From NCBI GenBank assembly GCA_903858815.1, contig CAIOKE010000031.1:1-62829 (forward strand): a stretch of 62,829 nucleotides of DNA, in the 5' to 3' direction. The translations under genes were made by a program, and so were the position numbers. Shown here piece by piece: positions 41,947 through 62,829 of this stretch. The notes under the pieces are model-generated. The model worked only from the letters and a program-made list of their open reading frames with translations. It did not search any database and had not been told where the DNA came from. How positions within the stretch are numbered: position 1 is the first letter of the stretch; every line of letters starts with the position of its first letter. Source of the stretch: an uncultured Planctomycetaceae bacterium. GTDB taxonomy: Bacteria; Planctomycetota; Planctomycetia; Planctomycetales; Planctomycetaceae.

Positions 41947-41966
41947 CCGTCGGTTTCTACCGACGG
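41947..41966. repeat. Perfect 8-bp hairpin
   Basis: CCGTCGGT-TTCT-ACCGACGG has an 8-bp perfect stem and 4-nt loop. It lies 62 bp after the TPR gene but has no following T-run, so it is more likely part of the repeat family than a standard terminator. Confidence 0.65.
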
Positions 41967-41990
41967 CTCGCGCATGCAACACCCCCTTCG

Positions 41991-42063: not shown

Positions 42064-42383
42064 CAGGTTGCCAGGAGCCCCGTCCGTCCAAGGGGGGAAA
42101 CTCGCGTCTCCTGAGGCTGAAAACGCAAAAGCCGTCTGCACTTTGTTTTCAGCAGAGCTTCAAAAACGGGCGTTTTTTGCGGGTCCGCAGCAACCGCAGC
42201 AGTTTTTTCCGACCTGCAGTGCCAGTTCACGGATTCTCTGATAGCCACGAAACACGCCCCCCAAAATCCCTCTACCCCCAGGCACGGCACTCTGCATACA
42301 CTAAGCCTGACTCTGCGGCGCAAGGATCGCTGCGCGCCGCACGAGGCTTTGTCTGCCCTGCATTCGGAAGGGATTCCGCCGTC

Positions 42384-43070: not shown

Positions 43071-43107
43071 ACCCTGACCGAATCATGCCTGTCGTTTGGC
43101 AATCCGC

Positions 43108-44661: not shown

Positions 44662-44778
44662 CGGCTGGCAGCAGTCTCTGACAATTGCATTTTCCCGCTC
44701 CTTCCGTAGACTCGGGACGTGATCGGTGCTCAGCCGACCCTGATTTCTGCTTCCGCCTTCCCACAAAGGTCCCACCCC

Positions 44779-46119
44779 ATGTCTCGCTCTCAGCAGTCCC
44801 GTCGCGGGTTTCTTTCCGGTACATCGGCCATGCTGGCGGCCGCTACCGCCTCGGCCGCCTTTCCGTGGTCCGGCAAAGTTTTCGCCAACAACATGGCCAA
44901 TGATCGTCCGCGAGTCGGCTGTATCGGCCTCGGCGGGATGGGCCGCGGCGATGCTCACGGACACCGCAGCTTCGGGGACATCGTGACACTTTGCGATGTC
45001 GATGAAAACCAGGCCGCAAAGGCGAACGAAGACCCGAATATCGGTGCTGGAAAAGCCGATCTCTGCACCGACTACCGCAAGGTCCTCGAACGCCCGGATA
45101 TTGATGTCGTCAGCATCGTGACTCCCGATCACTGGCACGTCAAAATTGCCATCGAAGCACTGATTGCCGGGAAACACGTCTTCTGTCAGAAACCACTCAC
45201 TCTGACGCTGGAAGAAAATCAGCTCATTCGCAACGCCTGTCGCAAGTACAACGACCGCGTCTTCTTCGTGGGAACTCAGCAGCGCAGCGATCAGGAGCGA
45301 TTTCTGCGAGCTGTCAATATGGTCCGCCGTGGTTTGATCGGTGACGTACAGAAAATTACTGTGGGTATCAATGGTGGTGATGTCGGTGGTCCGTTTCAGA
45401 AGTCCGATCCGCCAGCCGGACTCAACTGGGATATGTGGCTGGGCCAGGCACCGCAGGTCCCCTACATCAGGGAACGCTGTCACAATACGTTCCGCTGGTG
45501 GTACGAATACTCCGGCGGAAAATTCACTGACTGGGGCGCTCACCATGTGGATATTTCACTGTGGGCCGCCGGACTGGATCAGGAAGGCACCGGACCGCTG
45601 GAAGTTGACGGCACTGACGCTAAGCATCCGGTATCGTTCAGGGACGGCTACCCCGAACAGGATGACCGCTTCAATTCAGCACACGACTTCAATGTGATTG
45701 CTCGTTTTGCCAGTGGCATGGAAATGCACATTACAAGTCGAGGCGACAACGGCATTCTGTTCGAAGGCAGCAAAGGTCGGTTCTTCGTGAACCGAGGCAA
45801 AATTACAGGCCAGCCGATTGAAGAAAACATCGATCAGGGTCAGTTCGGTCCCGAACAGCTGCAGGAACTTTATAAAGGCAAGCCTTTCGAAGGTCACAAG
45901 AACAATTTCTATCGCTGTCTTGCCGAAGGTGGCCTGCCCGTCTCCGACGTGTACTCGCATATCCAGACAATGAACACCTGCCATCTCGCGGTGATTGCAG
46001 CGCGGCTGAACCGCGTCATCAAATGGGATGCGAAGGCCGAAAAGATCACTGGCGATGATCAGGCTGCTTCGTTCTTCGCCAGAACCCCACGGGCCGGCTT
46101 CGAAATTCCTCGAGTGTGA
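44779..46119 (+). CDS. Gfo/Idh/MocA-family oxidoreductase, Tat-exported
   Basis: The 446-residue protein has a twin-arginine leader (SRRGFLSGTSAMLAAATASA) and then a Rossmann domain with GCIGLGGMGRGD near residues 47-58. The family motifs are TPDHWHVKIAIEAL, the EKP-type motif read here as GKHVFCQKPLTLT, and RWWYEYSGGKFTDWGAHHVDI. It is an NAD(P)-dependent sugar or cyclitol oxidoreductase that is secreted with bound cofactor, as is usual for these planctomycete proteins. The QKP variant keeps the lysine. The substrate is unknown. Its stop overlaps or nearly touches the start of the small membrane-protein gene. Confidence 0.92.
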   Translation: MSRSQQSRRGFLSGTSAMLAAATASAAFPWSGKVFANNMANDRPRVGCIGLGGMGRGDAHGHRSFGDIVTLCDVDENQAAKANEDPNIGAGKADLCTDYRKVLERPDIDVVSIVTPDHWHVKIAIEALIAGKHVFCQKPLTLTLEENQLIRNACRKYNDRVFFVGTQQRSDQERFLRAVNMVRRGLIGDVQKITVGINGGDVGGPFQKSDPPAGLNWDMWLGQAPQVPYIRERCHNTFRWWYEYSGGKFTDWGAHHVDISLWAAGLDQEGTGPLEVDGTDAKHPVSFRDGYPEQDDRFNSAHDFNVIARFASGMEMHITSRGDNGILFEGSKGRFFVNRGKITGQPIEENIDQGQFGPEQLQELYKGKPFEGHKNNFYRCLAEGGLPVSDVYSHIQTMNTCHLAVIAARLNRVIKWDAKAEKITGDDQAASFFARTPRAGFEIPRV

Positions 46120-46127
46120 GTCGGTTC

Positions 46128-46712
46128 ATGGCAACAGGGTCCGCGGGGAAACCACGGCAGCAGACTGACCAGTCAGTCACAACTGTCGGAAATGCTCAGC
46201 CCGGTGACGTGATGTCACCGGGTCCGGACACTGCTGCTGCAGTTGCTGCTGCCGACATCACAAAAATCTATCCTCCGTGGATCGTCGTGTTCCTGGCAGC
46301 ATGGCTGGGCACCGTCGCCGGAGGTGTCTTGTTTGGATTCGCATGTGGCCTGATGCCCTTCTGGTTTCTCGGCCCGATGGCAACCATTACGGGGCTGTAC
46401 GGTGCCTTTATGGGGCTCCTGCTGACGACAATCGGCAGTCTCCCGATCTCACTGATTCTCACCGGGATCGTGCGACTGCTGCCCTCCCACAGACGAACTC
46501 GTGAAAACTATATCATTGCTGCAGTCAGCACTGGCTTCTGCACAGGTGTTGGCTGCTTCTCAGCTCTCTGGCAACTCAGCCCGCTCGCCCTGATCCCCGG
46601 TCTGCTTGGTGCCACGGGAGCCGGCCTCGCCACGCTGCTGTCCGCTCGTAACGAACTGATTGCACCCCCGGCGCCACCACCAGTTTCCACCTGGGGTGAT
46701 CTTGACGCCTGA
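46128..46712 (+). CDS. Small integral membrane protein of unknown function
   Basis: The 194-residue protein has a hydrophilic N-terminus (about 45 residues) and then four hydrophobic helices (near 50-75, 80-115, 125-150 and 155-170), ending in a Pro-rich tail. I do not recognise a family. It follows the oxidoreductase gene directly: a GTG at 46116 overlaps that stop codon (GTGTGA), and an ATG lies at 46128. I prefer the ATG, but coupled translation from the GTG is possible. Confidence 0.65.
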   Translation: MATGSAGKPRQQTDQSVTTVGNAQPGDVMSPGPDTAAAVAAADITKIYPPWIVVFLAAWLGTVAGGVLFGFACGLMPFWFLGPMATITGLYGAFMGLLLTTIGSLPISLILTGIVRLLPSHRRTRENYIIAAVSTGFCTGVGCFSALWQLSPLALIPGLLGATGAGLATLLSARNELIAPPAPPPVSTWGDLDA

Positions 46713-46745
46713 CCACTGACTACTGACCACTGATTACTGATCACC
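46711..46745. repeat. Five degenerate heptamer repeats, TGACCAC type
   Basis: Directly after the membrane-protein stop codon the sequence runs as degenerate 7-bp units: TGACCAC, TGACTAC, TGACCAC, TGATTAC, TGATCAC. Short heptameric repeats of this kind occur in intergenic DNA of several bacteria. No function can be assigned. Confidence 0.7.
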
Positions 46746-46908
46746 GAAAACTCACTCGCTTCTCTCTCGGCAGTATTCTCAGCCCGCACTTCCGCCGATA
46801 CTCTGTGAACAAGGCGGACAATTCCTGAAGACACCAGCAGTGACGACCGTCCCGAGTCTGTTGGTCACCAGTCGCTGCTCACGGACCCCGCCCCCCTCGG
46901 AGTCGATC

Positions 46909-49900
46909 ATGCGTCCGCAATTCGTCCTGTGCCTGCTGCTGACCCTGCAGGTCTCTGTCGGCAGCAGCCATCCAGCGACCGCTGACGATCCTGCCACAAT
47001 CGATTTCAATCGCGACGTGCGTCCGATTCTGTCCAATCATTGCTGGTCCTGTCATGGCCGCGACGAGTCATCGCGTAAAGCCGGTCTCAGACTGGACACT
47101 CGCGATGCCGCTCTGGCCACCGGAGACAGCGGTCGCCCTGCTGTTGTTCCCGGTCAGCACTCGGCCAGCGAACTGGTGCGGCGAATTCTGTCGCCTGATG
47201 CTGCTGAAGTCATGCCACCACCGGAATTGCAGAAACCGCTCACAGAACAGCAGCAGCGGATCCTGCAGCAGTGGATTCAGCAGGGCGCCGCCTACGCGGA
47301 ACACTGGGCTTTCATCCCTCCCCGGCGACCCGCTCTGCCGACCGTCAGAAATACAGACTGGCCCAGTAATGAACTCGATCTGTTCATTCTGCAGAAACTG
47401 GAACAGGCCGGCCTGCAGCCTGCACCTGCCGCACCACCACTGATGTGGCTCCGCCGCGCTGCACTGGATCTGACCGGGATTTCACCGTCTCCTGCCGAAC
47501 AACAGCAGTTCCTTGCAAACATCCCGGCTCTGGGTCTGAACGCCGCCAAAGCAGAGGCCGCCGATCGGATGCTGCAGTCCCCGCATTCGGCCGAACGACT
47601 TGCCATGCACTGGCTTGACGGAGCACGCTATGCCGATACCAACGGCTACAACAATGATGAAATGCGCACGATGTGGCCCTGGCGTGACTGGGTCATCAAT
47701 GCCTTTCAGTCAGGCATGCCGTGGGATCAGTTCCTTATTGAGCAGCTGGCCGGCGATCTGCTGCCGAATGCCACCATCAGTCAGAAAGTCGCCACCGGCT
47801 TCATCCGCAATCACGTGCTGACCACAGAAGGCGGCATTATTGAAGACGAATACCACTGGGAATATGTGGCGGATCGGATTCATACCACGTCAACTGTGTT
47901 CCTTGGTCTGTCTCTGCAGTGTGCTCGCTGTCACGATCACAAATACGATCCGTTTTCGCAGCGCGATTATTATCGGCTTGCCGGCTTCTTCAACAACGTG
48001 CCCGATCGAATTGTCTCCTACAGCCAGGGTCGCATGGCAGAACCGCTGCTGAAGGTTCCTTCACCAGCCCAGTCAGCCGAACTGGAACAGCTGGCTCGTC
48101 GTGAAACAGAGCTGCAGCAGTTGCTGGCGGGCCGCCAGTCGGCTGTCGCTGAGACCGCTGCCGACTGGGCAGCCGGACTTACCGAACAGCAGCTGGCCGA
48201 ACTGGAACTCTCCGGACTTGCTCACGCCTTTGCTCTCGATGAAACAGGTGCGGAATTCGCCGACAGTACCGGTCGATCTGCTCCGGCCACTCCGCATGGC
48301 ACTCCACAAAGTGTACCCGGTCATTCCGGCAACGCACTGCAGTTGAACGGCAGTCACTGGATTGCCGCTCCAGCCGTTGGTGACTTTGAAGCGGATCAGC
48401 CATTCACAGCATCGGCCTGGATTCGGACGGAGGCCGGTGCCGGAGGCACGGTGTTCAGTCGCATGGATGATGCGGCAGCCTATCGTGGCTACGACCTGAT
48501 CGTGGAAGGTGGTCGTCTGAATGCTCACTTCATTGACCATTGGCCCGATAAAGGCTGCAAAGTCTCTACTCAGGCCATCCTGAAACCGCAGCAGTGGCAC
48601 CACGTTGCACTGGTCTGGCAGGGAACTCGCCGCGCATCAGGGATTCGAATTTACGTTGACGGCGTACTGCAGCCGCTGCAGGTTGACAATGACGGAGAAG
48701 TCGCCGGATCGCTCAGGACCCCGCGCCCATTCCACATCGGACGCCGTTCCGGTTCCGTTCCCTTCACTGGAACGATTGATGACGTGCGAATCTTCAGCCG
48801 AGCGATTTCCGAGACGGATGCGCAGCGTCTGGCAGCCGGTACGGCGCTCGCCGGAATTCGTGATCTCGTACTCACCGCAAGGGCTGAACGCACTGCGGAA
48901 CAGCAGGCTGAACTGCAGCGCTTTTTTATTGATCATATCGATCCTGAAGCACGCAACTGGCGAACTGAACTGACGACCATCGGACCGCGTCGCGCAACCA
49001 TTGAACAGCAGATTCCTCAAACCATGGTGATGCAGGAGCAGTCACCGCGTCGTCCATCCTTTATTCTGCATCGCGGCCAGTACGACCAGCGAGGTGAACA
49101 GGTGACGGCCGGCATCCCGGCTGTCTTCGCCACAACCTCAACAGCCACCGCAGACGCCGCTCCACAACCTGAGCCAACACGTCTCGACTTCGCTCGCTGG
49201 CTGGTCAGCCCTCAGAATCCCCTGACGGCGCGCGTGGCCGTCAATCGCTGGTGGGAGTTGCTGTTCGGCTGTGGAATTGTGGAAACCACAGAAGACTTTG
49301 GCATTCAGGGAGCCCTGCCATCGCATCCGGAACTGCTGGACTGGCTGGCAGTGGAACTGCAGACTAATGGCTGGAATCAGCGAAGCCTGCTGAAACGCAT
49401 GGTCCTGTCAGCCACTTATGGCCAGACATCAGCAGTCAGCAGTGAACAACTTGAACGAGATCCGCGGAATCGGCTGCTGGCTCGCAGTGCCCGGCTGCGA
49501 CTCCCTGCGGAAATGCTGCGCGATAACGCGCTGGCGGCAGCCAGCCTGCTGAACCCGCTGATTGGCGGCCCCAGTGCCAAACCATGGCAGCCGGAAGGGT
49601 TGTGGGAAGATGTTTCTGTGGAGCGTCGGGAAAAGTATCAGCCCGATCCCGGGGACGGCATTTATCGCCGCAGCATGTACACATTCTGGAAACGGACCTG
49701 TCCGCCACCCGCGATGACCGTCTTTGATGCTCCCGATCGGGAAACCTGTCTCGTCCGACGTTCTCGTACAAATACCCCGTTGCAGGCACTGGTACTGCTG
49801 AACGACCCCACATTTGTGGAAGCAGCGCGCAGCCTTGCCGGGCGCGTTCTGCAGGATGCTGCGAAGGATCCAGCTCGTATCGAACTTGCATTCAACATCG

Positions 49901-50118
49901 TTCTTGCACGCCAGCCGGCGCCGGCAGAACGGGATGAACTGCTGCAATTGCTGGCTGCCGGTCGTCAGCACTTTGCTGCGGAACCTGCCGCTGCCGCTGA
50001 ACTGCGAAAAGTCGGACGCGCTGTTGTCGATCCTCGAATTCCTGATGCTGAACTGGCGGCGTGGAGCTCTGCCATGACGGTCCTCCTGAATCTTGACGAA
50101 GCGATTACTCGCCCCTGA
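46909..50118 (+). CDS. PSD1 cytochrome protein: CXXCH + DUF1549 + LamG-like + DUF1553
   Basis: The 1069-residue secreted protein has a signal peptide (about residues 1-25) and an N-terminal PSD1 cytochrome segment with CWSCH (45-49) and VMPPPELQKPLT. DUF1549 spans about 150-350 and contains CARCHDHKYDPFSQ. A LamG/concanavalin-like domain follows near 450-620 (NALQLNGSHWIAAPAVGDFE, VDGVLQPLQVDNDGEV) and DUF1553 near 755-1020. The LamG-like insertion suggests binding to a carbohydrate. A DUF1501 gene follows 21 bp downstream. The ATG at 46909 fits the signal peptide; upstream in-frame codons do not. Confidence 0.93.
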   Translation: MRPQFVLCLLLTLQVSVGSSHPATADDPATIDFNRDVRPILSNHCWSCHGRDESSRKAGLRLDTRDAALATGDSGRPAVVPGQHSASELVRRILSPDAAEVMPPPELQKPLTEQQQRILQQWIQQGAAYAEHWAFIPPRRPALPTVRNTDWPSNELDLFILQKLEQAGLQPAPAAPPLMWLRRAALDLTGISPSPAEQQQFLANIPALGLNAAKAEAADRMLQSPHSAERLAMHWLDGARYADTNGYNNDEMRTMWPWRDWVINAFQSGMPWDQFLIEQLAGDLLPNATISQKVATGFIRNHVLTTEGGIIEDEYHWEYVADRIHTTSTVFLGLSLQCARCHDHKYDPFSQRDYYRLAGFFNNVPDRIVSYSQGRMAEPLLKVPSPAQSAELEQLARRETELQQLLAGRQSAVAETAADWAAGLTEQQLAELELSGLAHAFALDETGAEFADSTGRSAPATPHGTPQSVPGHSGNALQLNGSHWIAAPAVGDFEADQPFTASAWIRTEAGAGGTVFSRMDDAAAYRGYDLIVEGGRLNAHFIDHWPDKGCKVSTQAILKPQQWHHVALVWQGTRRASGIRIYVDGVLQPLQVDNDGEVAGSLRTPRPFHIGRRSGSVPFTGTIDDVRIFSRAISETDAQRLAAGTALAGIRDLVLTARAERTAEQQAELQRFFIDHIDPEARNWRTELTTIGPRRATIEQQIPQTMVMQEQSPRRPSFILHRGQYDQRGEQVTAGIPAVFATTSTATADAAPQPEPTRLDFARWLVSPQNPLTARVAVNRWWELLFGCGIVETTEDFGIQGALPSHPELLDWLAVELQTNGWNQRSLLKRMVLSATYGQTSAVSSEQLERDPRNRLLARSARLRLPAEMLRDNALAAASLLNPLIGGPSAKPWQPEGLWEDVSVERREKYQPDPGDGIYRRSMYTFWKRTCPPPAMTVFDAPDRETCLVRRSRTNTPLQALVLLNDPTFVEAARSLAGRVLQDAAKDPARIELAFNIVLARQPAPAERDELLQLLAAGRQHFAAEPAAAAELRKVGRAVVDPRIPDAELAAWSSAMTVLLNLDEAITRP

Positions 50119-50139
50119 AGTCACTCCAATCCCCACCGG

Positions 50140-51558
50140 ATGCGGAAATCTCTCATGCTGAATGTCTCAGAAATCTGTCGACGAGCCTTCCTGCGACTGC
50201 CACCCGGCGCGGCCGCAGCTGCTGCTCTGCTGAATCCTGCCGCACAGGCTGCTGAAGCCTCACACTTTGCCCCGCGAGCCAAACGAGTTGTCTATCTGTT
50301 TCAGTCCGGTGGCCCGTCCCATCTGGAACTGCTCGATGAAAAACCGGGCCTCCGCAGACTCCACGGCTCTGAGCTGCCCGATTCCATCCGGCGCGGACAA
50401 CGCCTGACCGGAATGACATCCGGACAGAACAGCTTCCCCGTCATCGCTCCGAAGTTTGCCTATCGCACGTACGGCCAGAGCGGTCTGCGGATGAGCGAAC
50501 TCCTGCCGCATACCGGAAGTATTGCCGATCAGTTGTGTGTGATTCGTTCCATGCACACCGAAGCCATCAATCACGACCCGGCAATCACTCTGATCCAGAC
50601 CGGTTCACAGCAACCAGGTCGCCCAGCCCTTGGCGCATGGGCCAGTTACGGGCTGGGCAATGAAGCTGAAGATCTGCCGGCGTTTATCGTCATGATTTCT
50701 CATGGCAGTGGTCGCGATGCCAATCAGGGGCTGCTGGAACGATTATGGGGCAGCGGGTTTCTGCCCTCCAGTCATCAGGGTGTCAAACTCCGCGGCAGTG
50801 GTGATCCGGTGCTGTACCTTTCCGATCCACCGGGTATCAGTCGCGACTTTCGCCGCACCATGCTTAACAGTGTCCAGTCCCTGAATCAGCAGCATCTGCA
50901 GCAGTCGGGTGATCCGGAGATTGCCACTCGGATCGCGCAATACGAAATGGCCTTCCGCATGCAGGCCTCGGTCCCCGATCTGATTGATATGTCGCAGGAA
51001 TCAGAAGCCACATTTCAGATGTATGGTGACGAGGCGCGGAAGCCGGGAACTTTTGCTGCCAACTGCCTGCTGGCTCGACGACTGCTGGAACGTGGCGTGC
51101 GATTCGTCCAGCTGTTTCATCGCGGCTGGGACCAGCATGGAGGATTACCGTCAAATCTGCCGAAGCAGTGCCACGATATTGATCAGCCGCAGGCCGCACT
51201 GATCCGCGATCTGCAGCAGCGCGGCCTGCTGGAGGATACTCTGGTGGTCTGGGGTGGTGAATTCGGACGTACCGTATACGGTCAGGGTGGCCTGCAGGCC
51301 GATTATGGCCGTGATCATCATGGACGCTGTTTTTCTGTCTGGCTGGCCGGCGGCGGCATTCGTGGTGGCATGACACTGGGGCAGACCGACGACTACGGCT
51401 ACAATATTGAATCCGACCCCGTCCACATTCATGACCTGAATGCCACCATCCTGCAGTGCCTCGGGATGGATCATCAGCGGCTGACATACCGTTTTCAGGG
51501 ACGCGACTATCGACTGACGGATGTGCATGGAAATCCAGTAAAATCGATTCTTTCATAA
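50140..51558 (+). CDS. DUF1501 protein paired with the LamG-type PSD1 protein
   Basis: The 472-residue protein has a twin-arginine-like leader ([20 protein letters not shown]) and the DUF1501 motifs [16 protein letters not shown] near residue 55, GWDQHGG and [10 protein letters not shown], and it ends with a [16 protein letters not shown] tail. It is encoded 21 bp after the PSD1 gene and almost certainly cotranscribed. The family probably has an alkaline-phosphatase-like fold; the substrate is unknown. The ELLDEKP form differs from the DTFDPKP form of the other copies. Confidence 0.92.
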
Positions 51559-51727
51559 CTCCCGGAACCAGTAAACGCCGGACTTACCCTGCTTTTCCTG
51601 CATGACTCAGCCGGCTCGATCCGTCATACTTCACTGCTATGCCGACATCGTGCCCAGCCCGGTGTCAGCCCCGCCTCCCGTTCTTTCCCGGCCACTGGCC
51701 CGTGACAGTCCCCCCGTGGATGTTTCC

Positions 51728-54583
51728 ATGAAACACTCTTCTGCCCGCCTGTCGTACCTGTTGCTGCTGACAATGCTGACCGCTTCCACGGTGTCGGCAC
51801 AGCAGTCAGAAGTCAGCTTCTCAGGCCAGGTCCGGCCCCTGTTGGCACGTCGTTGTTTTGCCTGTCATGGTCCGGATAAGGCCGAAGGCGGACTGCGGCT
51901 GCATGCAGCAGAACCGGCTCTGGCAAAACTGGAATCGGGGCATGCCGCGATTGTGCCCGGCAACCCGACAGACAGCGAACTGCTCAAGCGCATCACCAGT
52001 ACCGAGGAAGGAGTGCGGATGCCTCCAGAGGGCGCTGCACTCACCGCCGCCGAACAGCAGATCCTCCGCGACTGGATTGCTCAGGGTGCCGTCTGGAAGC
52101 AGCACTGGTCCTTCGAACCACTCCATCGTCCTGCCGTCCCCGCAGTGGCCGGTGACAACCCCGGTGAGCCTCATCCGATTGATGCCTTCATCGATGCTCG
52201 CCTGCAGCAGAAGGGACTCAGTCGCAGTCCCCGTGCTGATTCGCATGTGCTGCTCCGCAGGCTCTACCACGACCTCATCGGACTGCCCCCCACGCCACAG
52301 CAGATGAGCAGTTTCCTGCAGCGTGCAGCCACGGATTTCAACACGGCATGGCGTCAGGAAATTGACTCACTGCTGGCTTCTCCGCAGTATGGTGAACGCT
52401 GGGCTCGCCACTGGCTGGACGTTGTGCGTTTCGCTGAAACCAACAGCTTCGAACGTGATGGCATCAAGCCCAACGCGTGGCGTTTTCGCGATTACGTCAT
52501 TCGCTCATTCAATGATGACAAACCCTACGATCAGTTCCTGCGGGAACAGCTGGCCGGGGATGAACTGCCTGAAGTCACTCGCGATTCCCTCGTTGCCACA
52601 GGCTTCTACCGACTGGGGATCTGGGATGACGAGCCGGCGGATCGCAAGCTGGCCATGTACGAAGGCTTTGACGATATCCTGACGACAGTCAGCCAGGGAA
52701 TGCTGGGCCTGACACTGAACTGTGCCCGCTGCCATGACCATAAAATTGACCCGCTGCCTGCAGCAGACTATTACAGCACGCTGGCCTTCTTTCGCAACAT
52801 CACACCCAACGGCTACGGTCCGAACGTCGAGCGGCCTTTGATTGCCAATGCCACCGATCAGGAAGCCTTCGCCGCAGCAGAAAAGGACATTCGCGAATCT
52901 TCGGATCGCCTGCAGGCTCGAGTGACTGAACTGGAAGTGCAGCTGCAGAAGCAGATCGCCGAAGTCTCCTCCGCTGCGGCCTCAGGTCGCGATCTGGATG
53001 ACCTTGAATACCGTTTCTACCGAGACTCATTCCAGCAGCTGCCGGACTTCGATTCGCTCAAACCCGAAACCGTGGCCGTGCTGGACCCGCCCCTCATCTC
53101 CATTGCACCGGCAACTCGTCCAGACCACTTTGGCTTCGTCTTCACCGGCATGCTCATCGTGCCGGCTGACGGCGACTACGAATTCGTCCTCGATTCTGAC
53201 GACGGCTCACGATTACTGATCGATGGCAGGAAACTGCTGGAATACGATGGCATTCACGGGCTGGGTGGCGCCAAACAGGCCACTCTGAAGCTGACTCAGG
53301 GACGCCATCCGCTGCGGCTGGAATACTTCCAGGGACTGTTTGGAAAGGGCCTGCAGCTGGCGTGGAGTGGTCCTGGATTCACACGCCGCAGCCTCACTGC
53401 AGAAGACGGCTCCAGTGGTCGTGATCTCAACGAATTCCTCAGGTCACCGGCTGCCGAACAGCTGGATCAGGCTTTGGTTCGCGAATATCGGCAGACACGT
53501 CGCCAGCTGGAAGAAACCAAACGACGGAAACCATGGGACGAATACGGACTGTGCATCAGCGAATCCGGAATCAATGCTCCCGAAACCTTCATTCTGACAC
53601 GCGGCAGTCCGGAAGCGGAAGGTGCGAAAGTTCAACCGGGTTTCCCCGCAATCCTTGGTGGTGGCACTCCCGAAATCACCGCCAACCCCGCTGCCAATAC
53701 CACCGGACGACGGCTGGCTTTCGCCAACTGGATCACCAGTCCGCAGCATCGACTGACCAGTCGCGTTTTTGTCAATCGGATCTGGCAGCATCACTTCGGA
53801 CGCGGCATCGTGCGGTCTCCCAATAACTTCGGGCAGATGGGCGAACCGCCCACTCATCCGGAACTGCTGGACTGGCTGGCCGCAGAATTCGTGGAACAGG
53901 GCTGGCACATGAAATCCCTGCATCGATTGATCCTCACATCAGCCACGTGGCAGCAGACAACCGTGGCCGATGCTGCGGCCCGCGAACGCGATCCGAACAA
54001 TGATCTGTTCGGGCGCTTTGATCTGCGGCGTCAGAGTGCGGAAGAACTGCGGGATTCTGTTCTTGCCGTGAATGGTACGCTGAATCCCAGAATGTTCGGA
54101 CCCGGCATTTACCCGTCCATCTCGCGCGAGGTTCTTGCCGGGCAGTCGGTACCAGGCTCAGGCTGGGGACAGTCGTCTGCGGAAGAGCAGACACGGCGGA
54201 GCATTTACATTCACGTGAAACGTTCGCTGCTGCTGCCTTTTCTGTCCAGCTTTGACTTTCCGGAACCGGATACCAGCTGTGAAGCTCGTTTTGTAACGAC
54301 TCAGCCCGGCCAGGCACTCAGCCTGCTGAATGGTGAATTCTTTAATCAGCAGGCGACTGCCTTTGCCAATCGCCTGCGGCAGGAGGCCCCTGGTGATATC
54401 CGGCAGCAGATGCAGCTGGCCTTTCGGTTGACGCTCTGTCGGGAGATCCGGGACGAAGAAGTGGCTCGTGGTCAGCAGCTGCTGCAGACACTGCAGCAGA
54501 AGCACGGCATGTCGGCCGATCAGGCGCTGCAGTGGTACTGTTTATACGTCCTGAATCTGAACGAATTTGTCTTCATTGAATGA
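51728..54583 (+). CDS. PSD1 cytochrome protein: CXXCH + DUF1549 + PA14 + DUF1553
   Basis: The 951-residue protein has a signal peptide (residues 1-24), an N-terminal PSD1 motif CFACH (43-47) with RMPPEG, and DUF1549 near 150-355 ending in CARCHDHKIDPLP. A PA14 domain lies near 425-560 (FTGMLIVPADGDYEFVLDSD, GSRLLIDGRKLLEYDGIHG), and DUF1553 spans about 640-910. PA14 domains bind glycans, so this member may target a different polymer from the LamG and BIG2 members. The DUF1501 gene follows 43 bp downstream. The ATG at 51728 is chosen for its signal peptide over an ATG at 51602. Confidence 0.93.
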   Translation: MKHSSARLSYLLLLTMLTASTVSAQQSEVSFSGQVRPLLARRCFACHGPDKAEGGLRLHAAEPALAKLESGHAAIVPGNPTDSELLKRITSTEEGVRMPPEGAALTAAEQQILRDWIAQGAVWKQHWSFEPLHRPAVPAVAGDNPGEPHPIDAFIDARLQQKGLSRSPRADSHVLLRRLYHDLIGLPPTPQQMSSFLQRAATDFNTAWRQEIDSLLASPQYGERWARHWLDVVRFAETNSFERDGIKPNAWRFRDYVIRSFNDDKPYDQFLREQLAGDELPEVTRDSLVATGFYRLGIWDDEPADRKLAMYEGFDDILTTVSQGMLGLTLNCARCHDHKIDPLPAADYYSTLAFFRNITPNGYGPNVERPLIANATDQEAFAAAEKDIRESSDRLQARVTELEVQLQKQIAEVSSAAASGRDLDDLEYRFYRDSFQQLPDFDSLKPETVAVLDPPLISIAPATRPDHFGFVFTGMLIVPADGDYEFVLDSDDGSRLLIDGRKLLEYDGIHGLGGAKQATLKLTQGRHPLRLEYFQGLFGKGLQLAWSGPGFTRRSLTAEDGSSGRDLNEFLRSPAAEQLDQALVREYRQTRRQLEETKRRKPWDEYGLCISESGINAPETFILTRGSPEAEGAKVQPGFPAILGGGTPEITANPAANTTGRRLAFANWITSPQHRLTSRVFVNRIWQHHFGRGIVRSPNNFGQMGEPPTHPELLDWLAAEFVEQGWHMKSLHRLILTSATWQQTTVADAAARERDPNNDLFGRFDLRRQSAEELRDSVLAVNGTLNPRMFGPGIYPSISREVLAGQSVPGSGWGQSSAEEQTRRSIYIHVKRSLLLPFLSSFDFPEPDTSCEARFVTTQPGQALSLLNGEFFNQQATAFANRLRQEAPGDIRQQMQLAFRLTLCREIRDEEVARGQQLLQTLQQKHGMSADQALQWYCLYVLNLNEFVFIE

Positions 54584-54626
54584 ACTACGGACACCGGGTC
54601 AACGGTGTGTTGCAGGAGCGACTGCG

Positions 54627-56060
54627 ATGGGATCAGAATTCTGCGGGCGAACTCGACGTGAAACGCTGTGGCAGACAGGTGCTGGGTTTGGCGCGGCGGC
54701 GCTGACCGGACTTCTGTCCGACGAGGGCTTCTTTGGCAAAGCTGTGGCAGCCGATGGTGCTGCACTGGCACAGCCTCACTTTACCCCAAAAGCCAAAAGC
54801 GTCATTTTCCTGTTCATGTACGGTGGCCCCAGTCATATCGATACGTTTGATTACAAGCCGCAGATGAAGGGGCGTGACAATCAGACGGTCGAGGTGAAGA
54901 CATTTGGCCGCGGTGGTCGGCGAAACAATGGGCGAATTGTCGAACCGCGATGGGAATTTGCTCAGCATGGACAGTGCGGAAAATGGATCAGCACACTGTT
55001 TCCGCATCTGGCCACCTGTGCCGACGATCTGGCCTTCATTCATTCGATGACGGCCGATTCTCCAATCCACGGCTCGGCCATGCTGATGATGAATTCGGGA
55101 CGTGTCCAGAGTGGTCATCCGTGTCTGGGGTCGTGGGTCAATTACGGGCTGGGTAGTGTCAATCGCAACCTGCCGGGTTTCGTCGTGATGCTGGACCCCA
55201 CGGGTGGACCGATTTCCGGGGCAAAGAACTGGTCCAGCGGATATATGCCGGCCAGTCTGCAGGGCACCACCTTCCGGACCAGGGGGGCTCCTGTACTGGA
55301 CCTGCAGGCACCGAACGGTGTCAGTCGCGAATTACAGCGAGACCTGCTGGATGCCCTGAAGCTGCAGAACGAGGCGCATGCTGCGCTGCATGGTGGTCGC
55401 TCTGATCTGACATCACGCATCGCCAGCTACGAACTGGCCTTCCAGATGCAGCAGTCCGCACCCGAAGCGGTCGATCTGTCTTCTGAAACTCAGCAGACGC
55501 AACAGCTCTATGGTCTCGACAACGATCGGACTCGCGACTTCGGCACGAAGTGCCTGCTGGCACGACGACTGGTGGAGCGTGGTGTGCGATTCATTCAGGT
55601 GTATTCCGGTGGAGCTCACAACGACGACAACTGGGATGCTCATTCCGATCTGAAGAAGAACCACGACTACCATGCTCTGAATACGGATCAGCCCATCGCA
55701 GCTCTGTTGAAGGATCTGAAGCAGCGCAACCTGCTGGACGAAACGCTGGTAGTCTGGGGTGGTGAATTCGGTCGTCAGCCGACGGCCGAATATGCGGAGG
55801 GGACCGGCCGTGACCACAACTCGTACGGTTTCACGATGTGGATGGCTGGCGGTGGAATCCGCGGTGGTGTCAGTGTCGGCACCACAGACGAATTGGGCTC
55901 CGCAGCGGTTGAGGATCCCTTTCACGTCAGGCGGCTGCATGCCACGGTACTGCACCAGCTCGGCATTGACCCGAATCGCCTCAGCTATTTCCACTCAGGA
56001 CTGGATCAGAAACTTGTCGGCGTAGAACCTGTTGAACCGATCCGGCAGATCATCAGCTGA
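54627..56060 (+). CDS. DUF1501 protein paired with the PA14-type PSD1 protein
   Basis: The 477-residue protein has a twin-arginine leader (GRTRRETLWQTGAGFGAAAL) and DUF1501 hallmarks FMYGGPSHIDTFDYKPQM near residue 70 and GGEFGRQPTAEYAEGTGRDHN in the C-terminal half. The ATG at 54627 has AGGAG eight bases upstream, which fixes the start. It is the second gene of the PSD1/DUF1501 unit. The catalytic role is unknown. Confidence 0.93.
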   Translation: MGSEFCGRTRRETLWQTGAGFGAAALTGLLSDEGFFGKAVAADGAALAQPHFTPKAKSVIFLFMYGGPSHIDTFDYKPQMKGRDNQTVEVKTFGRGGRRNNGRIVEPRWEFAQHGQCGKWISTLFPHLATCADDLAFIHSMTADSPIHGSAMLMMNSGRVQSGHPCLGSWVNYGLGSVNRNLPGFVVMLDPTGGPISGAKNWSSGYMPASLQGTTFRTRGAPVLDLQAPNGVSRELQRDLLDALKLQNEAHAALHGGRSDLTSRIASYELAFQMQQSAPEAVDLSSETQQTQQLYGLDNDRTRDFGTKCLLARRLVERGVRFIQVYSGGAHNDDNWDAHSDLKKNHDYHALNTDQPIAALLKDLKQRNLLDETLVVWGGEFGRQPTAEYAEGTGRDHNSYGFTMWMAGGGIRGGVSVGTTDELGSAAVEDPFHVRRLHATVLHQLGIDPNRLSYFHSGLDQKLVGVEPVEPIRQIIS

Positions 56061-56592
56061 ATCGCGTTTGTCTACAAACAGGTCCGCGCAGTGACACCTG
56101 AATTCGCTGTAATTCGGGTGTGACTGATGACTTTGCATCACTCCAACAGACCAGTACAGCCACTAGACATCCGGATTCTTCAGCAGTCGCAGTACCTGAT
56201 CGAGTCGTTGAACAGCGGATCCATGCGAAATCATGTGGGCACTTGCAGGTTGCAGTGTGATGCGGTTTTTGAAAAGTGATCAACTCGGTCTGACGCGCAG
56301 TCTGAATGTGTTTCATCAATAGAGCGACGATGACCACGGAATCAGTAAGCCGTGTACAGCGCCCTCGGCCTGCCTGTCCCGTACGCGGACAACGTCGCCA
56401 ATCTGCTGTACAGCGCGGCAACTGACCACATACGGTTGTGTTTGGTGGCAGCAGCCATGCTGTTCACAAGCAACTTCCGTCCACTTCCGTGTTTTTCCGC
56501 GTCCCTGCGTGGCGAATCGCCCCAGGCCGGCAACAATATGCTCTGAGCCCTCCAGTGAAGGCAGATGGGTGCACAGACGAGGAGTGACTGAA
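56061..56592. other. Spacer before the giant helicase gene, with a stem-loop
   Basis: This 532-bp stretch contains a stem-loop at 56094-56121 after the DUF1501 gene, two GTACAGCGC blocks 49 bp apart near 56354 and 56403, and the AGGAG ribosome binding site of the helicase at 56580-56584. No gene is evident. Confidence 0.5.
56094..56121 (+). terminator. Stem-loop after the DUF1501 gene, possible terminator
   Basis: ACACCTGAATT-CGCTGT-AATTCGGGTGT has an 11-bp stem with one mismatch. No U-tract follows, so it may stabilise the transcript end rather than terminate by itself. Confidence 0.45.
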
Positions 56593-59500
56593 GTGACAGC
56601 TGGCGAAAATACGCATTCGATTTCCATTCGGGCAGAACTCGCAGGCAGCATCAACTATGCAAGTCATCAGAATTCCGTCCCGGTTGTCAGGTCACTGATC
56701 GTGCAGAACCACGGTGCGACTACGGTGCGCAACCTGAAACTGTCGTTTCGGGTCACCCCGGCATTCGCTCGAGGGCGGATCTGGCACATTGAGCGAATTG
56801 AACCCGGTGCAGAGATCGATATTTCTGACCGCCTGATCGAACTGGAACCGGGCTATCTGAATGGCCTGAATGAAGCGGAACTGGGCCGCATCGATCTCTC
56901 CCTCGCCGATGCGGATCGGGAACTCACCCAGGTCAGCTCAGAAATCCGTATTCTTGCTCGAGACGAATGGGGCGGGTTTTCAGCTGCCCCGGAATTGCTT
57001 GCTGCGTTCGTGATGCCAAATGATCCAGCAGTCTCGCAACTGATGAAAAAGACGGCAGAAGCTCTTGGTCTGCATGGCCACTCGACGGCATTGGATGGCT
57101 ACCAGAGCCGTGAACGAGGTCGCGCCTATATGCTGGCCGCAGCAGTCTGGTCGGCGATTGCGGCCGGAAAGCTGACGTACTCCAATCCTCCAGCCAGCTT
57201 CGAACAGTCCGGACAGAAAACTCGACGACCCTCAGTTGTCCTGCAGAGTGGATTGGCCACCTGCCTCGATTCAACGCTGCTGTTCGCGTCTGTGCTTGAG
57301 GGAATCGGCCTCAATCCGGTCGTGATATTCCAGCAGGGACACTGCTTCGCAGGTGTCTGGCTGGCGGAGGCAACCTTCAGGCAACTGATAGAAACCGACA
57401 TCACCGAAGTTCGGAAGGCTATCCAGGCGAAAGAACTCGTGGTCTTCGAAACCACCCTGATCACCCAGTCGCCGCCGGCTCGCTTTCAGGACGCAGAAGC
57501 AGCAGCCACTCAATCATTAAGTCGAGAGCAGGAAGAACGCTTTGTAGCAACGGTCGACATCAAAAGAGCCCGGATGTCTCAAATCAGACCGTTGGCATCC
57601 CATGATGCTCGGGATCACCGGCAAAAAGTCGCGGACAATCAGGCCCCCGGCTTCATCCCGCTGCCACAGATGCCCGATCTGCCGGACCACGAAGTAATTG
57701 CTGCGCCTGAAGAACTTCCGGTGACTCCACGCGGACGCATCGAACGCTGGCAGAACAAACTGCTCGACCTGTCGTTGCGAAACCGGCTCCTCAACTTCAG
57801 GGATTCCAGACAGGTCGTACCCTTTTTGTGCCCGGATGTGCCACTGCTTGAAGATAACCTCGCCCGGGGAAAAAAGGTCCGAGTTATCTCGCTGACTGAA
57901 GAGAACCCCGTTGGTGACCGTGATGAGAAAATCCACCAACAGACCACTCGAAAAGGTATTAACACAGAATTTGCTCGGTTGGCGCTGGATCGAAATGAAC
58001 TGGTATCGCCACTGCCGAAAAAAGAACTCGACAGCAGACTTGTGGAACTCTACCGCAAAACCAAAAACGATCTCGCCGAGGGCGGATCCAATACCCTGTT
58101 CCTTGCTGTTGGATTCCTGTCGTGGCGCAGAGAGTCGGACGGCGCCACTGCATATCGTGCTCCGTTACTTCTGGTCCCGGTGAAACTGGTCCGCGCATCC
58201 GCTGCTTCACCATTTTGTCTTGCCAGTCATGAGGATGATGTCTGCTTCAATGCGACTCTGATTCAGATGTTGTCAAAGGACTTCGGTCTGAACCTTTCCG
58301 CACTCGAAACAAATCTTCCAGCAGATCAGAACGGAATTGACGTCAATCAGGTATTTGAATCGGTTCGACGCGCCGTGCGGCTGGTGCCGGGGTTTGAAGT
58401 CGTCGATGAAACGGCGCTTTCAACATTCTCCTTTTCCAAATACCTCATGTGGAAGGATCTTACAGACCGCCTTGAACAGCTGACAAAAAATCGAGTCGTT
58501 CGACACCTGATTCAGAATCCGGACAAGCAGTTCGATCGCGCTGTTTCAACACCATTTCCAACCAGTCAGGACATCGATCGAAAGTACTCACCCGGGGACC
58601 TTGTTTATCCACTGCCTGCAGATTCTTCGCAGCTTGCCGCGATTGCTGCGGCCGATGCCGGACAGGACTTTGTACTGATCGGGCCCCCGGGGACCGGAAA
58701 GAGCCAGACAATCGCCAATATGATCGCGCATTGTCTTTCAAAGCGAAAGTCCGTCCTGTTTGTAGCAGAAAAAACTGCCGCACTGGACGTGGTCTATCGC
58801 CGGCTCAGAAATCAGGGACTGGGGAACTACTGTCTTGAACTCCATTCCAGCAAAGCCGAACGCAGGCGTTTCATCGAGCAGCTGACGACTGCCTGGAAGG
58901 CTTCGGAAAAGGCCACCTCGGACAGGTGGCTTGATATCAACTCGCGAACAAAAACTCGCCGCGACCAGCTGAATGCGTATGTCGAAGCCCTGCACAGGGA
59001 GCATCCGAACGGCTGGACGGTGTTTCGTGCGATGGGCGAATCTGTAAAGGGTGGCTCGACACCGACGCCTGCAATCGACTGGCCCCGAACCGTTGTGTTC
59101 GATAAGGCGCAGTATCAGTCCCACGTCGACGCTGTTCAGGAATTAAGCCTGACGCGGAAGGAAGTTGGAAGCATTCAAAAACCCGGTTCCCTGACGGTCA
59201 CGGAGTGGTCTGCGGTCTGGGAACAGAATCTGTATGCCGCAGTGACTTCACTTGAGGACGCATGCGCTGATCTTCGTCAGAAGCTGGCCGCATTTGCAGT
59301 CGCGGTTGGTGCAGGAAATCAGCTGGACGGGTCCGCCGAATCACTGCAGCTTTACGGACGGCTTGCCAAGGAACTGCGTGCCACCGCGACAGAAAACTTT
59401 GCAGTCATCTTTCATAAGGATCTGGCACAGCTCTGCACACACGTCGATTCGCTGGAAGCGTCGTTCCGTATTGTTCAACAGCAGGCGACGCGATTGAAGG

Positions 59501-62466
59501 GCGTCTATGCGCCGGAAGTACTGATGACAATTCCTGTGGAAGATCTGGACAGGGAGTGGCGTGTTGCGAGCACGAAGTTCTGGCCGTTTTCGATCATGGC
59601 AAAACGCCGTGTGAAAAAGCTTTTGCAGACATACGCATCATCCGGCAGCGCCGACCCCGCAATAGATCTGCCCGCTCTGCGCAGGCAGCAGCTGGAATTC
59701 CGGAAGATCGATGCCTGCCCCCTCGCAGGCCAGACCGCAGGATGGAACGGACGCGAGACAGATCCGGAGAAATTACGCGCCCACCTGACAAAAGCGCGAG
59801 AGCTGCGACAGCTGATTGTTGAGCTTGGCAAACAGAATGGCCAACTGAAGCTGATGTCCGAAACGCTGTCTCCCATCCTCAGACGGGATGCTTCTTCAGA
59901 TCCTGTCATCCATGCTGCCGAGGTGTTTTTTGCAGCAATAAATACCTTTGTGGAATCTGTTCAGAAATTCCGTTTCGTAGCTGGTGGAAATCCTTTTGAA
60001 AAGGGCACCAGCTCCATGATTGCCGATACAGAAAAGCAACTGGCCAGTCTGAAGACAAATCGATCTTCGCTGCGAAACTGGATTGCGTGGCATGAGATTA
60101 CACAGCGTGTTTCAGATCTCGGCCTCGGCAGTTTTGTCAAAGCGATGGAATCCGGTCAGCTGGCTCCGGAAGATGCGCCTGCAGCCTTCCGACTGGCCTT
60201 CGTTCGCTGGTGGCTTCCTGGCGCCATCGATGGCAGTCCCGCGCTGAAGCAGTTTCAGCGATTCCGGCATGAAGACGCCATACGGGAGTTCAGAGAACTG
60301 GACGACGCAGCACGCGTCGAAGCTGCCGTGACAATTCGTCGGGCACTGACACACCAACTGCCCGACCCCAATAGTGTTCCGAAACAATCAGAACTGGGGC
60401 TGCTGCGTCATCAATCGCAGTTGCAGCGACCCAGTAAAACGATCCGGGAACTGATCGGGGGTATGCCCGAAAGTTTCGGAAAGCTGGCACCATGCCTGCT
60501 GATGTCACCACTCTCCATCGCCCAGTACCTGCCACCAGATCAGACGGTCTTCGACGTTGTCATTTTCGACGAGGCGTCTCAGATCACGACCTGGGATGCG
60601 ATTGGAGCGATCGCGCGAGGTCGTCAGACAATTATTGTGGGGGACCCCAGACAATTACCCCCCACAAACTTCTTCGGACGTTCCGAAAGTGAAACCGACG
60701 ATGAGGACATGGAGTACCATGAAAAAGATCTGGAAAGCATACTGGATGAAGCCAAAGCCTCTGGTATCCCCACAATGCAGCTCAACTGGCACTATCGCAG
60801 CAGCCACGAATCGCTCATTGCCTTCTCAAACTACCATTATTATGGCAACGAACTGATCACGTTCCCTTCTGCCGTCACTGCAGATCGAGGGGTATCGCTG
60901 AAACATCTTCCCAATGGGACTTTTGACCGCGGCAGAAGCCGTACAAATCGCGAAGAAGCGCGAGCAATCGTCGCCGACGCTGTCGGTCGTATGAAACTCT
61001 GGATGAAACTTCCACCCGAACAGCGTCAGACTCTGGGAATCATTACATTCAACATCCAGCAGCAGACTCTGATTCAGGATTTATTTGACCAGGCGCGCAG
61101 AGACTCACAGGAAATCGAGTGGTTTTTCGACGACGCACGAATCGAACCAACGATCGTGAAAAATCTTGAAAACGTTCAGGGAGATGAACGCGATGTGATG
61201 CTCTTTTCCATCGCATTTGGTCCTGATGCAACCGGTAAGATCCCGCTGAACTTCGGAGCACTCAGTCGTGCCGGTGGCGAAAGACGTCTGAATGTGGCGG
61301 TCACTCGCGCCCGCAGGGAATTGGTGGTCTACTCATCATTCAAAGCGGACCAGTTAAATGCTGACGGGGCCAAACATATCGGTGTACGTCATCTCAAGGC
61401 GTTCCTGGACTACGCCGACCGTGGCCCGATCGCACTGCATGCTCAGGATCAGGGTTCGGTCGGTGGCTTTGAATCACCCTTCGAAGAGGCTGTCGCACTG
61501 CAGCTGAAGTCTCGCGGGTGGCAGGTCGTTTCTCAGATCGGCGTCTCAGCATTTCGCATTGATCTGGGTATTGTCCATCCCGACAAGCCCGGAGCCTACC
61601 TCGCCGGGATCGAATGCGACGGTGCAACTTATCATCGATCGGCAACGGCGCAGGATCGCGACAGGATTCGCGAACAAATCCTGCGTCATCTTGGCTGGGA
61701 AATCCTGAGGATCTGGTCCACCGACTGGTGGGCTGACAGTCGATCGGCCACTGACAGACTGCACACGGCCTTAACGGACTTGCTGGCACGAAAGCGTGAG
61801 GAAGATCGGGTGCAGGACGAACAGGAGGCTTCAAGGCCCCCTGAAGACGCATCTTCTGAGGACGAAATTGTCATCGATGCGGCTGGCCCTGCAGGCAGAC
61901 CACAAATCTCCATCGCCGGTGAACCAGAACAGACCGACGGTGTTATCCATCTGAAATACCGCGTGTTTGACGGATCCGGGTTCACAATCCAGCCGGATGC
62001 ATTTTTCGACAACGGCTATTCCGACACGCTGAAGAAGATCACACTGGCAGCACTCGAGATGGAATCGCCCGTCAGAGACGATATTCTCTGCCAGCGGATT
62101 GCTCGGCTGCACAACATCGGTCGAACAACCAGTCGACTGCGAGATCGAGTTCTGGGGCTGATTCCCCACGTTGCTTTTACTGATGAATCAACAGGCAGGT
62201 TTCTGTGGTATCCAGGCACACCACTGGAATCCACAGATTATCGCTACCCGGATTCAGAAGAAGCCCGCCGACCGGTTGATCAGATCTCACTCGCAGAACT
62301 CTGTGACTTTGTCATCAGTCATCGCGAGATTCTTCAGGAATCAGATCCACCACTGGCGCTGGCTCGAATGCTGGGAATTGGCAGACTCACTGGCAGCGCA
62401 AGAGACCGTCTCAGGGAAGTGATCAGTCGAACCAAAGAACTGACTGGCGAGTCAGAACGGGTGTAA
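56593..62466 (+). CDS. Giant DUF4011 / SF1 helicase / Vsr-like nuclease / DUF3320 protein
   Basis: The 1957-residue protein combines a beta-rich N-terminus (about 1-110), a transglutaminase-like domain near 150-270 (C224 in LATCLD, H250 in QQGHCF), DUF4011 from about 382 (RIERWQNKLLDLSLRNRLLNF) to 620, and a split SF1 helicase core. The helicase has Walker A GPPGTGKS (697-704), Walker B FDEASQ (D1326), GDPRQLPP (1350-1357), a long helical insertion between them, and the C-terminal ENVQGDERDVM and NVAVTRARREL motifs. A Vsr/MTES_1575-type nuclease follows near 1628-1740 (D1657, E1674, D1676), then DUF3320 near 1810-1860. The GTG at 56593 is chosen for AGGAG eight bases upstream. Helicase-nuclease proteins of this layout are candidate anti-phage genes. 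Tandem repeats follow it. Confidence 0.92.
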   Translation: MTAGENTHSISIRAELAGSINYASHQNSVPVVRSLIVQNHGATTVRNLKLSFRVTPAFARGRIWHIERIEPGAEIDISDRLIELEPGYLNGLNEAELGRIDLSLADADRELTQVSSEIRILARDEWGGFSAAPELLAAFVMPNDPAVSQLMKKTAEALGLHGHSTALDGYQSRERGRAYMLAAAVWSAIAAGKLTYSNPPASFEQSGQKTRRPSVVLQSGLATCLDSTLLFASVLEGIGLNPVVIFQQGHCFAGVWLAEATFRQLIETDITEVRKAIQAKELVVFETTLITQSPPARFQDAEAAATQSLSREQEERFVATVDIKRARMSQIRPLASHDARDHRQKVADNQAPGFIPLPQMPDLPDHEVIAAPEELPVTPRGRIERWQNKLLDLSLRNRLLNFRDSRQVVPFLCPDVPLLEDNLARGKKVRVISLTEENPVGDRDEKIHQQTTRKGINTEFARLALDRNELVSPLPKKELDSRLVELYRKTKNDLAEGGSNTLFLAVGFLSWRRESDGATAYRAPLLLVPVKLVRASAASPFCLASHEDDVCFNATLIQMLSKDFGLNLSALETNLPADQNGIDVNQVFESVRRAVRLVPGFEVVDETALSTFSFSKYLMWKDLTDRLEQLTKNRVVRHLIQNPDKQFDRAVSTPFPTSQDIDRKYSPGDLVYPLPADSSQLAAIAAADAGQDFVLIGPPGTGKSQTIANMIAHCLSKRKSVLFVAEKTAALDVVYRRLRNQGLGNYCLELHSSKAERRRFIEQLTTAWKASEKATSDRWLDINSRTKTRRDQLNAYVEALHREHPNGWTVFRAMGESVKGGSTPTPAIDWPRTVVFDKAQYQSHVDAVQELSLTRKEVGSIQKPGSLTVTEWSAVWEQNLYAAVTSLEDACADLRQKLAAFAVAVGAGNQLDGSAESLQLYGRLAKELRATATENFAVIFHKDLAQLCTHVDSLEASFRIVQQQATRLKGVYAPEVLMTIPVEDLDREWRVASTKFWPFSIMAKRRVKKLLQTYASSGSADPAIDLPALRRQQLEFRKIDACPLAGQTAGWNGRETDPEKLRAHLTKARELRQLIVELGKQNGQLKLMSETLSPILRRDASSDPVIHAAEVFFAAINTFVESVQKFRFVAGGNPFEKGTSSMIADTEKQLASLKTNRSSLRNWIAWHEITQRVSDLGLGSFVKAMESGQLAPEDAPAAFRLAFVRWWLPGAIDGSPALKQFQRFRHEDAIREFRELDDAARVEAAVTIRRALTHQLPDPNSVPKQSELGLLRHQSQLQRPSKTIRELIGGMPESFGKLAPCLLMSPLSIAQYLPPDQTVFDVVIFDEASQITTWDAIGAIARGRQTIIVGDPRQLPPTNFFGRSESETDDEDMEYHEKDLESILDEAKASGIPTMQLNWHYRSSHESLIAFSNYHYYGNELITFPSAVTADRGVSLKHLPNGTFDRGRSRTNREEARAIVADAVGRMKLWMKLPPEQRQTLGIITFNIQQQTLIQDLFDQARRDSQEIEWFFDDARIEPTIVKNLENVQGDERDVMLFSIAFGPDATGKIPLNFGALSRAGGERRLNVAVTRARRELVVYSSFKADQLNADGAKHIGVRHLKAFLDYADRGPIALHAQDQGSVGGFESPFEEAVALQLKSRGWQVVSQIGVSAFRIDLGIVHPDKPGAYLAGIECDGATYHRSATAQDRDRIREQILRHLGWEILRIWSTDWWADSRSATDRLHTALTDLLARKREEDRVQDEQEASRPPEDASSEDEIVIDAAGPAGRPQISIAGEPEQTDGVIHLKYRVFDGSGFTIQPDAFFDNGYSDTLKKITLAALEMESPVRDDILCQRIARLHNIGRTTSRLRDRVLGLIPHVAFTDESTGRFLWYPGTPLESTDYRYPDSEEARRPVDQISLAELCDFVISHREILQESDPPLALARMLGIGRLTGSARDRLREVISRTKELTGESERV

Positions 62467-62829
62467 TCTGCTGTCGTTGATGCATTTGCTCGAACCTGTC
62501 GGCAACCGCACAAAAAAAAACACCAGTCAGCTGACACTGACGGCTCGCCTGTACGGCGGAGGAAGGACGTTCGGCTCCGCAGAAACCTCGCCCTCCCAGG
62601 GGGAACTTCCCTGGGACCACCGAGCACCAGCTCGGTAACGCCCAAACACAACACCAGTCACCTGACGCTGACAGCTCGCCTGTGCGGACGGGGGCAGGAC
62701 GTTCGGCTCGGCAGAAACCTCGCCCTCCCAGGGGGAACTTCCCTGGGACCACCGAGCACCAGCTCGGTAACGCCCAAACACAACACCAGTCACCTGACGC
62801 TGACAGCTCGCCTGTGCGGACGGGGGCAG
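62467..62829. other. Region downstream of the giant helicase gene, tandem repeats to the edge
   Basis: After a 54-bp lead containing a run of nine A residues, tandem repeats fill the stretch to the window edge. I see no gene; frames across it read through the repeats and repeat their own sequence. Confidence 0.7.
62521..62829. repeat. 131-132-bp tandem repeat array, two full units and a third cut by the edge
   Basis: Units start at 62521, 62652 and 62784 with CACCAGTCA. Unit 1 is somewhat diverged; units 2 and 3 are identical over the 46 bp that can be compared. Each full unit has a hairpin CCGAGC-ACCA-GCTCGG (62620-62635, 62752-62767) and a second potential stem CCCAGGG...CCCTGGG. The array may continue beyond the window. 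Confidence 0.92.

Follow-up and report, generated by a model that had tools for sequence, protein, structure and literature searches.

A planctomycete helicase-nuclease of the ProA family as a probable single-protein anti-phage defence with a likely transglutaminase-like domain

Background

The closest described systems to the gene studied here are the anti-phage protein ProA of NCBIfam (equivalog NF058533), the PADLOC type PDC-S37, the Hhe system (PADLOC PDLC02194; NCBIfam NF042953) and the MTES_1575-type giant proteins. The last are treated in passages of a 2013 paper (PMC3710099), which describe giant proteins with HEPN, transglutaminase-like, SF1 helicase and Vsr nuclease domains and a wHTH overlapping DUF3320, and propose that they act on invading DNA in a modification-independent manner. 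A literature search found no publication presenting ProA as anti-phage, and the NCBIfam label was not traced to data; the anti-phage activity that the name would imply is NCBIfam's label.

The window analysed here is a whole contig (C31, 62,829 nucleotides) of an uncultured Planctomycetaceae bacterium, whose genome (6.39 Mb) holds one ProA copy. Its cytochrome/DUF1501 genes and its near relative L042, a Planctomycetaceae MAG, likewise point to a planctomycete. The protein that it encodes matches NF058533 with 2134.2 bits against a curated cut-off of 1500, residues 21-1931 aligning with positions 1-1903 of the 1903-position model; the match thus covers the whole model, and we found no difference. 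The comparison with PADLOC gave a match to PDC-S37 (1204.6 bits, residues 382-1947 on model positions 9-1533 of 1550), which starts past the transglutaminase-like part of the window protein. Hhe has the helicase and nuclease regions in common with it, with scores of 510 (PDLC02194) and 784 bits (NF042953), but the latter match, at 784.1 bits against a cut-off of 2000, marks the window protein as a relative and not a member. With the giant proteins, as they are presented in passages of PMC3710099, it shares the SF1 helicase, the Vsr-type REase, the DUF3320/wHTH region and, probably, the transglutaminase-like domain, whereas those proteins bear an N-terminal HEPN RNase and the window protein is predicted to have a beta domain instead. 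A HEPN effector was considered for the window protein and rejected, as the Pfam scans returned no HEPN family and the predicted model places beta strands within residues 10-120.

On these profile matches, the window protein is a further member of an already known family. The initial annotation had termed the gene a candidate single-gene anti-phage system; we support the defence reading, though 'candidate' understates the case given that NF058533 is a named anti-phage equivalog and that PADLOC holds the model PDC-S37. The gene, in our view, most probably encodes a ProA-family (NF058533 / PDC-S37) protein that by itself provides anti-phage defence, and the alternatives are weighed below where the evidence on them is given.

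The gene and its helicase, nuclease and C-terminal domains

The gene occupies an uninterrupted frame of 1957 codons and a stop, so that the single protein originally proposed for this position stands (Table 1). In the mechanical ORF list the frame extends upstream to 56509, but we prefer GTG 56593 because the alignment with the homologue L042 begins at the same residue 1. Against L042, which is 79% identical, we obtained a dN/dS of 0.10 over 1956 codons with a dS of 1.26, a value at which synonymous sites are near saturation. The gene is thus under purifying selection and its frame is not a chance product.

Table 1. Positions of the ProA gene, its domains and associated features (window coordinates, except in the last three rows, which refer to the loci named)
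Feature	Position	Strand	Basis or remark
ProA-family gene, 1957 aa	56593..62466	+	GTG start, stop 62464-62466
AGGAG, likely ribosome-binding site	56580..56584	+	8 nt before GTG 56593
Beta-rich domain, about residues 9-120	56617..56952	+	predicted model of residues 1-390
Probable transglutaminase-like domain, about residues 131-330	56983..57582	+	conservation, model, weak Foldseek matches
C224	57262-57264	+	candidate Cys-His-Asp residue
H250	57340-57342	+	candidate Cys-His-Asp residue
D269	57397-57399	+	candidate Cys-His-Asp residue
DUF4011, residues 389-560	57757..58272	+	Pfam PF13195, E 3e-45
Walker A GPPGTGKS, residues 697-704	58681..58704	+	invariant in 14/14 rows (A1)
Walker B D1326-E1327	60568..60573	+	invariant in 14/14 rows (A1)
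AAA_12, second half of SF1 helicase, residues 1382-1580	60736..61332	+	Pfam PF13087, E 8e-15
MTES_1575 Vsr-type REase, residues 1630-1727	61480..61773	+	PF18741, E 1e-34; D1657/E1674/D1676
DUF3320, residues 1802-1851	61996..62145	+	Pfam PF11784, E 3e-9
Two copies of 132-nt repeat behind gene	62557..62820	+	71 matches in genome
Mre11/Rad50-like pair, L108	13179-17951		
Mre11/Rad50-like pair, L045	4885-9616		
Mre11/Rad50-like pair, L046	15924-19678		

The Pfam HMM search recovered all four domains of the initial annotation, viz., DUF4011, a split SF1 helicase, a Vsr-type nuclease (118.6 bits for PF18741 against a cut-off of 38.2) and DUF3320. AAA_11 matched in two stretches, the better of them at residues 1317-1358, and the helicase is distantly like SEN1/SMUBP-2. 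Both Walker motifs lie where they had been placed and are kept in every row of A1, an alignment of 14 homologue rows. Of the proposed D1657/E1674/D1676 site of the nuclease, E1674 and D1676 are invariant in the 14 rows, and D1657 is kept in 12, being replaced by Ser in L036 and Gly in L037. In a second, 10-row set D1657 and D1676 are invariant and E1674 is present in nine, L074 being the exception. The nuclease part resembles the catalytic domain of the homing endonuclease I-Bth0305I (3r3p_A; Foldseek TMt 0.78, E 0.07).

A winged helix has been proposed for the DUF3320 region in passages of PMC3710099. Our structure model of the C-terminal part is weak (pLDDT 74, pTM 0.43); it has no Foldseek match at an E-value of 0.001, and its winged-helix matches are not significant (E 2.5). 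We also note a same-genus ProA branch (L036 1852-7134 and L037 9347-14632) that lacks the DUF3320 end and carries Ser or Gly in place of D1657; behind ProA in both loci lie a conserved sulfatase gene and then two more genes.

A probable transglutaminase-like domain in the N-terminal region

While correct in the domains that it named, the earlier list overlooked residues 1-390, where we place the beta domain and the probable transglutaminase-like domain. In this region of the window protein Pfam gave no family at E-values up to 1, nor did a profile search against solved structures yield a match; a sub-threshold transglutaminase-like Pfam match (DUF553, E 0.18) was obtained for the homologue L074. 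The Cys, His and Asp/Glu residues of the transglutaminase-like fold occur in the order helix start, strand and loop. In the model predicted for residues 1-390 (pLDDT 83.4, pTM 0.78) C224 opens a helix, H250 opens a strand and D269 lies behind H250, an order that fits that of the transglutaminase-like fold. C224 and H250 are present in 14 of 14 rows of A1, residue 269 being Asp in 12 and Glu in two, and all three are invariant in a nine-row set (9/9).

Foldseek searches with this model retrieved transglutaminase 2 (9bc3, E 2.5e-4), a putative protease (3kd4, E 7.4e-4) and a PNGase (3esw, E 3.5e-3), all with low TM-scores; the latter two we take to carry transglutaminase-type folds. A glycosidase ranks first, and further transglutaminase 2 entries can be aligned over about 120 columns only, probably those of the beta domain. 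Between the window protein and L042, pN is 0.072 over residues 131-340, 0.085 over 650-830, 0.048 over 1291-1590 and 0.148 over 1-130; that is, residues 131-340 are conserved about as well as the helicase halves, and the beta domain less so. From the model and this conservation, a transglutaminase-like domain within residues 131-330 is likely, though not proven.

Two variants of the N-terminal part were seen. L041 (9036-9830, genome G097) holds a 264-residue open frame that matches ProA residues 9-232 only and may be a remnant or an N-terminal part standing alone, and L084 (9548-16027, viral contigs) encodes a ProA homologue in which some 140-150 additional residues precede the aligned part.

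An adjoining Mre11/Rad50-like gene pair

A pair of genes for an Mre11/SbcD-like phosphoesterase and a Rad50/SMC-like ATPase adjoins ProA in nine of the 41 near-full-length loci (L045, L046, L108, L111, L127, L128, L129, L133 and L131, where the ATPase is shortened). This is a raw count, made with six queries from three carrier loci, and the 41 loci include near copies. The carriers belong to two phyla, Pseudomonadota and planctomycetes, and the order of the pair and ProA varies among them; a 43-residue remnant of the pair adjoins ProA in L126. Pfam identifies Metallophos and AAA_27/SMC_N domains in the pair, and SbcD/Mre11 models match below their cut-offs.

These loci bear on an alternative in which the functional unit is a three-gene system of ProA, the SbcD/Mre11-like phosphoesterase and the Rad50/SMC-like ATPase, and where ProA stands without the pair it would depend on the SbcCD of its host. 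The direct adjacency in nine loci of two phyla with differing gene orders, the remnant and the domains of the pair speak for it. However, 31 of the 41 loci have neither pair nor remnant, among them the 79% relative L042 with a right flank of 9 kb; both members of the L108 pair lack a strong PADLOC match; and alphaproteobacterial plasmids, many from related rhizobia, account for seven of the nine carriers and genomes of the window's class for the other two, while three of the carriers had themselves supplied the queries. The window shows 366 bases after the ProA match. We regard the three-gene alternative as rather unlikely, and prefer a defence carried by ProA as a single protein.

Distribution, phylogeny and chromosomal sites

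ProA is patchily distributed. Near-full-length matches in a single locus were found in nine of the 99 genomes searched and, within the genus, in seven of 18, the window's own genome included in both counts; G002, whose pieces are split over two contigs, would raise the latter to eight of 18. The ProA cut-off was passed in 20 of the 297 genomes of the class (own included) and in none of 14 control genomes. Ten of these 20 match from model position 1 and ten from positions 310-352 on, without the N-terminal part. ProA also occurs on plasmids: 452 of 72,556 plasmid records match, spread over many genera, and 66 of them contain 80% or more of the query at a single place (best 54%, Rhizobium). Among phage records two of 50,697 match, one of them near full length (MT836269.1, 31%), and at least 27 ProA loci were found in viral contigs and three in genome contigs. 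A ProA copy on a Klebsiella plasmid had no near match in 20,395 E. coli records.

In a quick tree of 36 rows (LG+G4, SH-aLRT only, with long branches and skewed compositions flagged), drawn from the 41 near-full-length loci without L050, L073, L076, L078 and L129, one clade unites 16 of the 17 planctomycete copies beside a Rhizobium plasmid copy, and L038 stands apart. Frequent transfer between phyla is not supported by this clade. Together with two groups of three same-genus genomes, each group with a locus in common (L032-L034 in one; L036, L037 and L039 in the other), it makes some vertical descent likely, and the common loci count against free movement of the gene.

The sites at which the gene is found differ between relatives. 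The initial annotation would have given up the defence reading had homologues been universally conserved at the same locus; we checked this and found it false, the 79% relative lying elsewhere. In this Planctomycetaceae MAG (G010) the homologue L042 sits between cdsA and the gene for a 691-residue protein, and in the window's own genome the counterparts of these two are adjacent on contig C328 without ProA, one mechanical ORF of 127 residues lying between them, so that the stretch 9574-16339 of L042 has no counterpart there. Conversely, the window genes at 54567-56060 and 51602-54583 have counterparts (92% and 84% identical, respectively) in G007, an 88% complete genome with no ProA match. There the DUF1501 gene is followed by a mechanical ORF of 140 residues and a gene of 421 residues. 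The window's genome matches this last gene once, where contig C154 starts; C154 opens with the repeat that also ends the window, and its collinearity with G007 extends over about 9 kb. If, as we infer, C31 and C154 adjoin, ProA and the repeat sit between two genes that in G007 lie close to each other.

On these grounds we reject vertical inheritance at a single locus throughout the genus, L042 being located elsewhere and the sites in the own genome and in G007 being empty. This pattern of occupied and vacant sites suggests gain and loss of ProA as a single-gene unit. When the window's genome is compared with G010, dN is 0.126 for ProA, 0.133 for cdsA and 0.071 for uppS; as the value for ProA is about that of cdsA, a move within the lineage and a separate acquisition are equally possible.

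Gene neighbourhood and a comparison for defence enrichment

Upstream of ProA lie planctomycete cytochrome and DUF1501 genes, an oxidoreductase gene and surface-polysaccharide genes, two of the 10 ORFs at 37538-56060 having no Pfam family and none a PADLOC family at an E-value of 0.001. The observation that the gene stands in no recognisable defence island therefore holds for the upstream side; downstream, the view ends with the contig. A DUF4011 domain is not by itself a sign of accessory defence, given that passages of PMC10250203 describe a DUF4011 gene of P. aeruginosa as a core gene that flanks a defence hotspot in every isolate.

From 12 plasmids (the 15 plasmid loci viewed, less L048, L049 and L050) we took the 83 ORFs lying no more than 5 kb from ProA and compared them with 92 ORFs from 12 control stretches of 10 kb, which were mostly chosen some 100 kb from ProA on the same plasmid, using PADLOC at an E-value of 1e-10. 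The ProA neighbours matched 108 PADLOC families as against 61 for the controls, counts in which models overlap. Among the 25 families listed for each set, those of the neighbours include IetA/IetS, BilD, PDC-S02, PDC-S06, mad3 and GajB-like and RTasHel helicases, and those of the controls include a CBASS-like set, SoFic, RecD-like, PDC-S68 and GlgB, the last a likely false match. The CBASS-like set (nucleotidyltransferase, ThiF, Mov34 and SAVED) lies in the control stretch L143 (3865-8422) of a Mesorhizobium amorphae plasmid. Control regions hold defence genes too, and this comparison shows no clear enrichment around ProA. Elsewhere, ProA has as neighbours a type III methyltransferase (L112, G180) and a TM0106-type nuclease-helicase (L035, G035), and many of the other ProA neighbours that were scanned have no defence match.

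The ordinary upstream neighbours, the distant likeness of the helicase to SEN1/SMUBP-2, the loci held in common by same-genus genomes and the Mre11/Rad50-like pair, which would suit DNA repair too, could also be read as signs of a host helicase-nuclease for genome maintenance, acting in repair or recombination and not in defence. Such a role is clearly unlikely in view of the patchy presence within the genus, the different loci with empty sites, the plasmid copies in many genera and the score above the cut-off of a curated anti-phage model.

The window ends 363 bases past the gene, inside the repeat. The 132-nt repeat is interspersed, several of its 71 genome matches being located at contig ends, and it probably breaks the assembly here; the whole window has no Rfam family and no tRNA. 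That the gene has decayed or lost its function and persists by chance, as this contig end and the upstream ORFs without PADLOC families might suggest, is highly improbable with a full-length frame, intact helicase and nuclease motifs and so low a dN/dS.

Proposed function and significance

As a single-protein anti-phage defence, ProA might function as follows. The SF1 helicase would load on invading DNA or replication intermediates and travel along them with ATP, and the Vsr-type PD-(D/E)XK domain would then cut the invading DNA. The C-terminal DUF3320 part may bind DNA, and the N-terminal transglutaminase-like domain, with its putative Cys-His-Asp residues, may regulate ProA or cut a protein target. 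Host protection by the window copy, the target that it would recognise and the activity of each domain are what we infer from sequence. More speculatively, the transglutaminase-like domain could be a phage-triggered protease of a two-effector ProA, which in some lineages would be part of a three-gene system with an Mre11/Rad50-like complex readying DNA ends; we give this elaboration a low probability.

The value of the window lies mainly in annotation, in that a large planctomycete protein is now placed in a named anti-phage type. To the family as a whole the analysis adds a conserved, probable transglutaminase-like domain in a region where Pfam scans gave no family for the window protein, and an Mre11/Rad50-like partner pair that recurs in two phyla.
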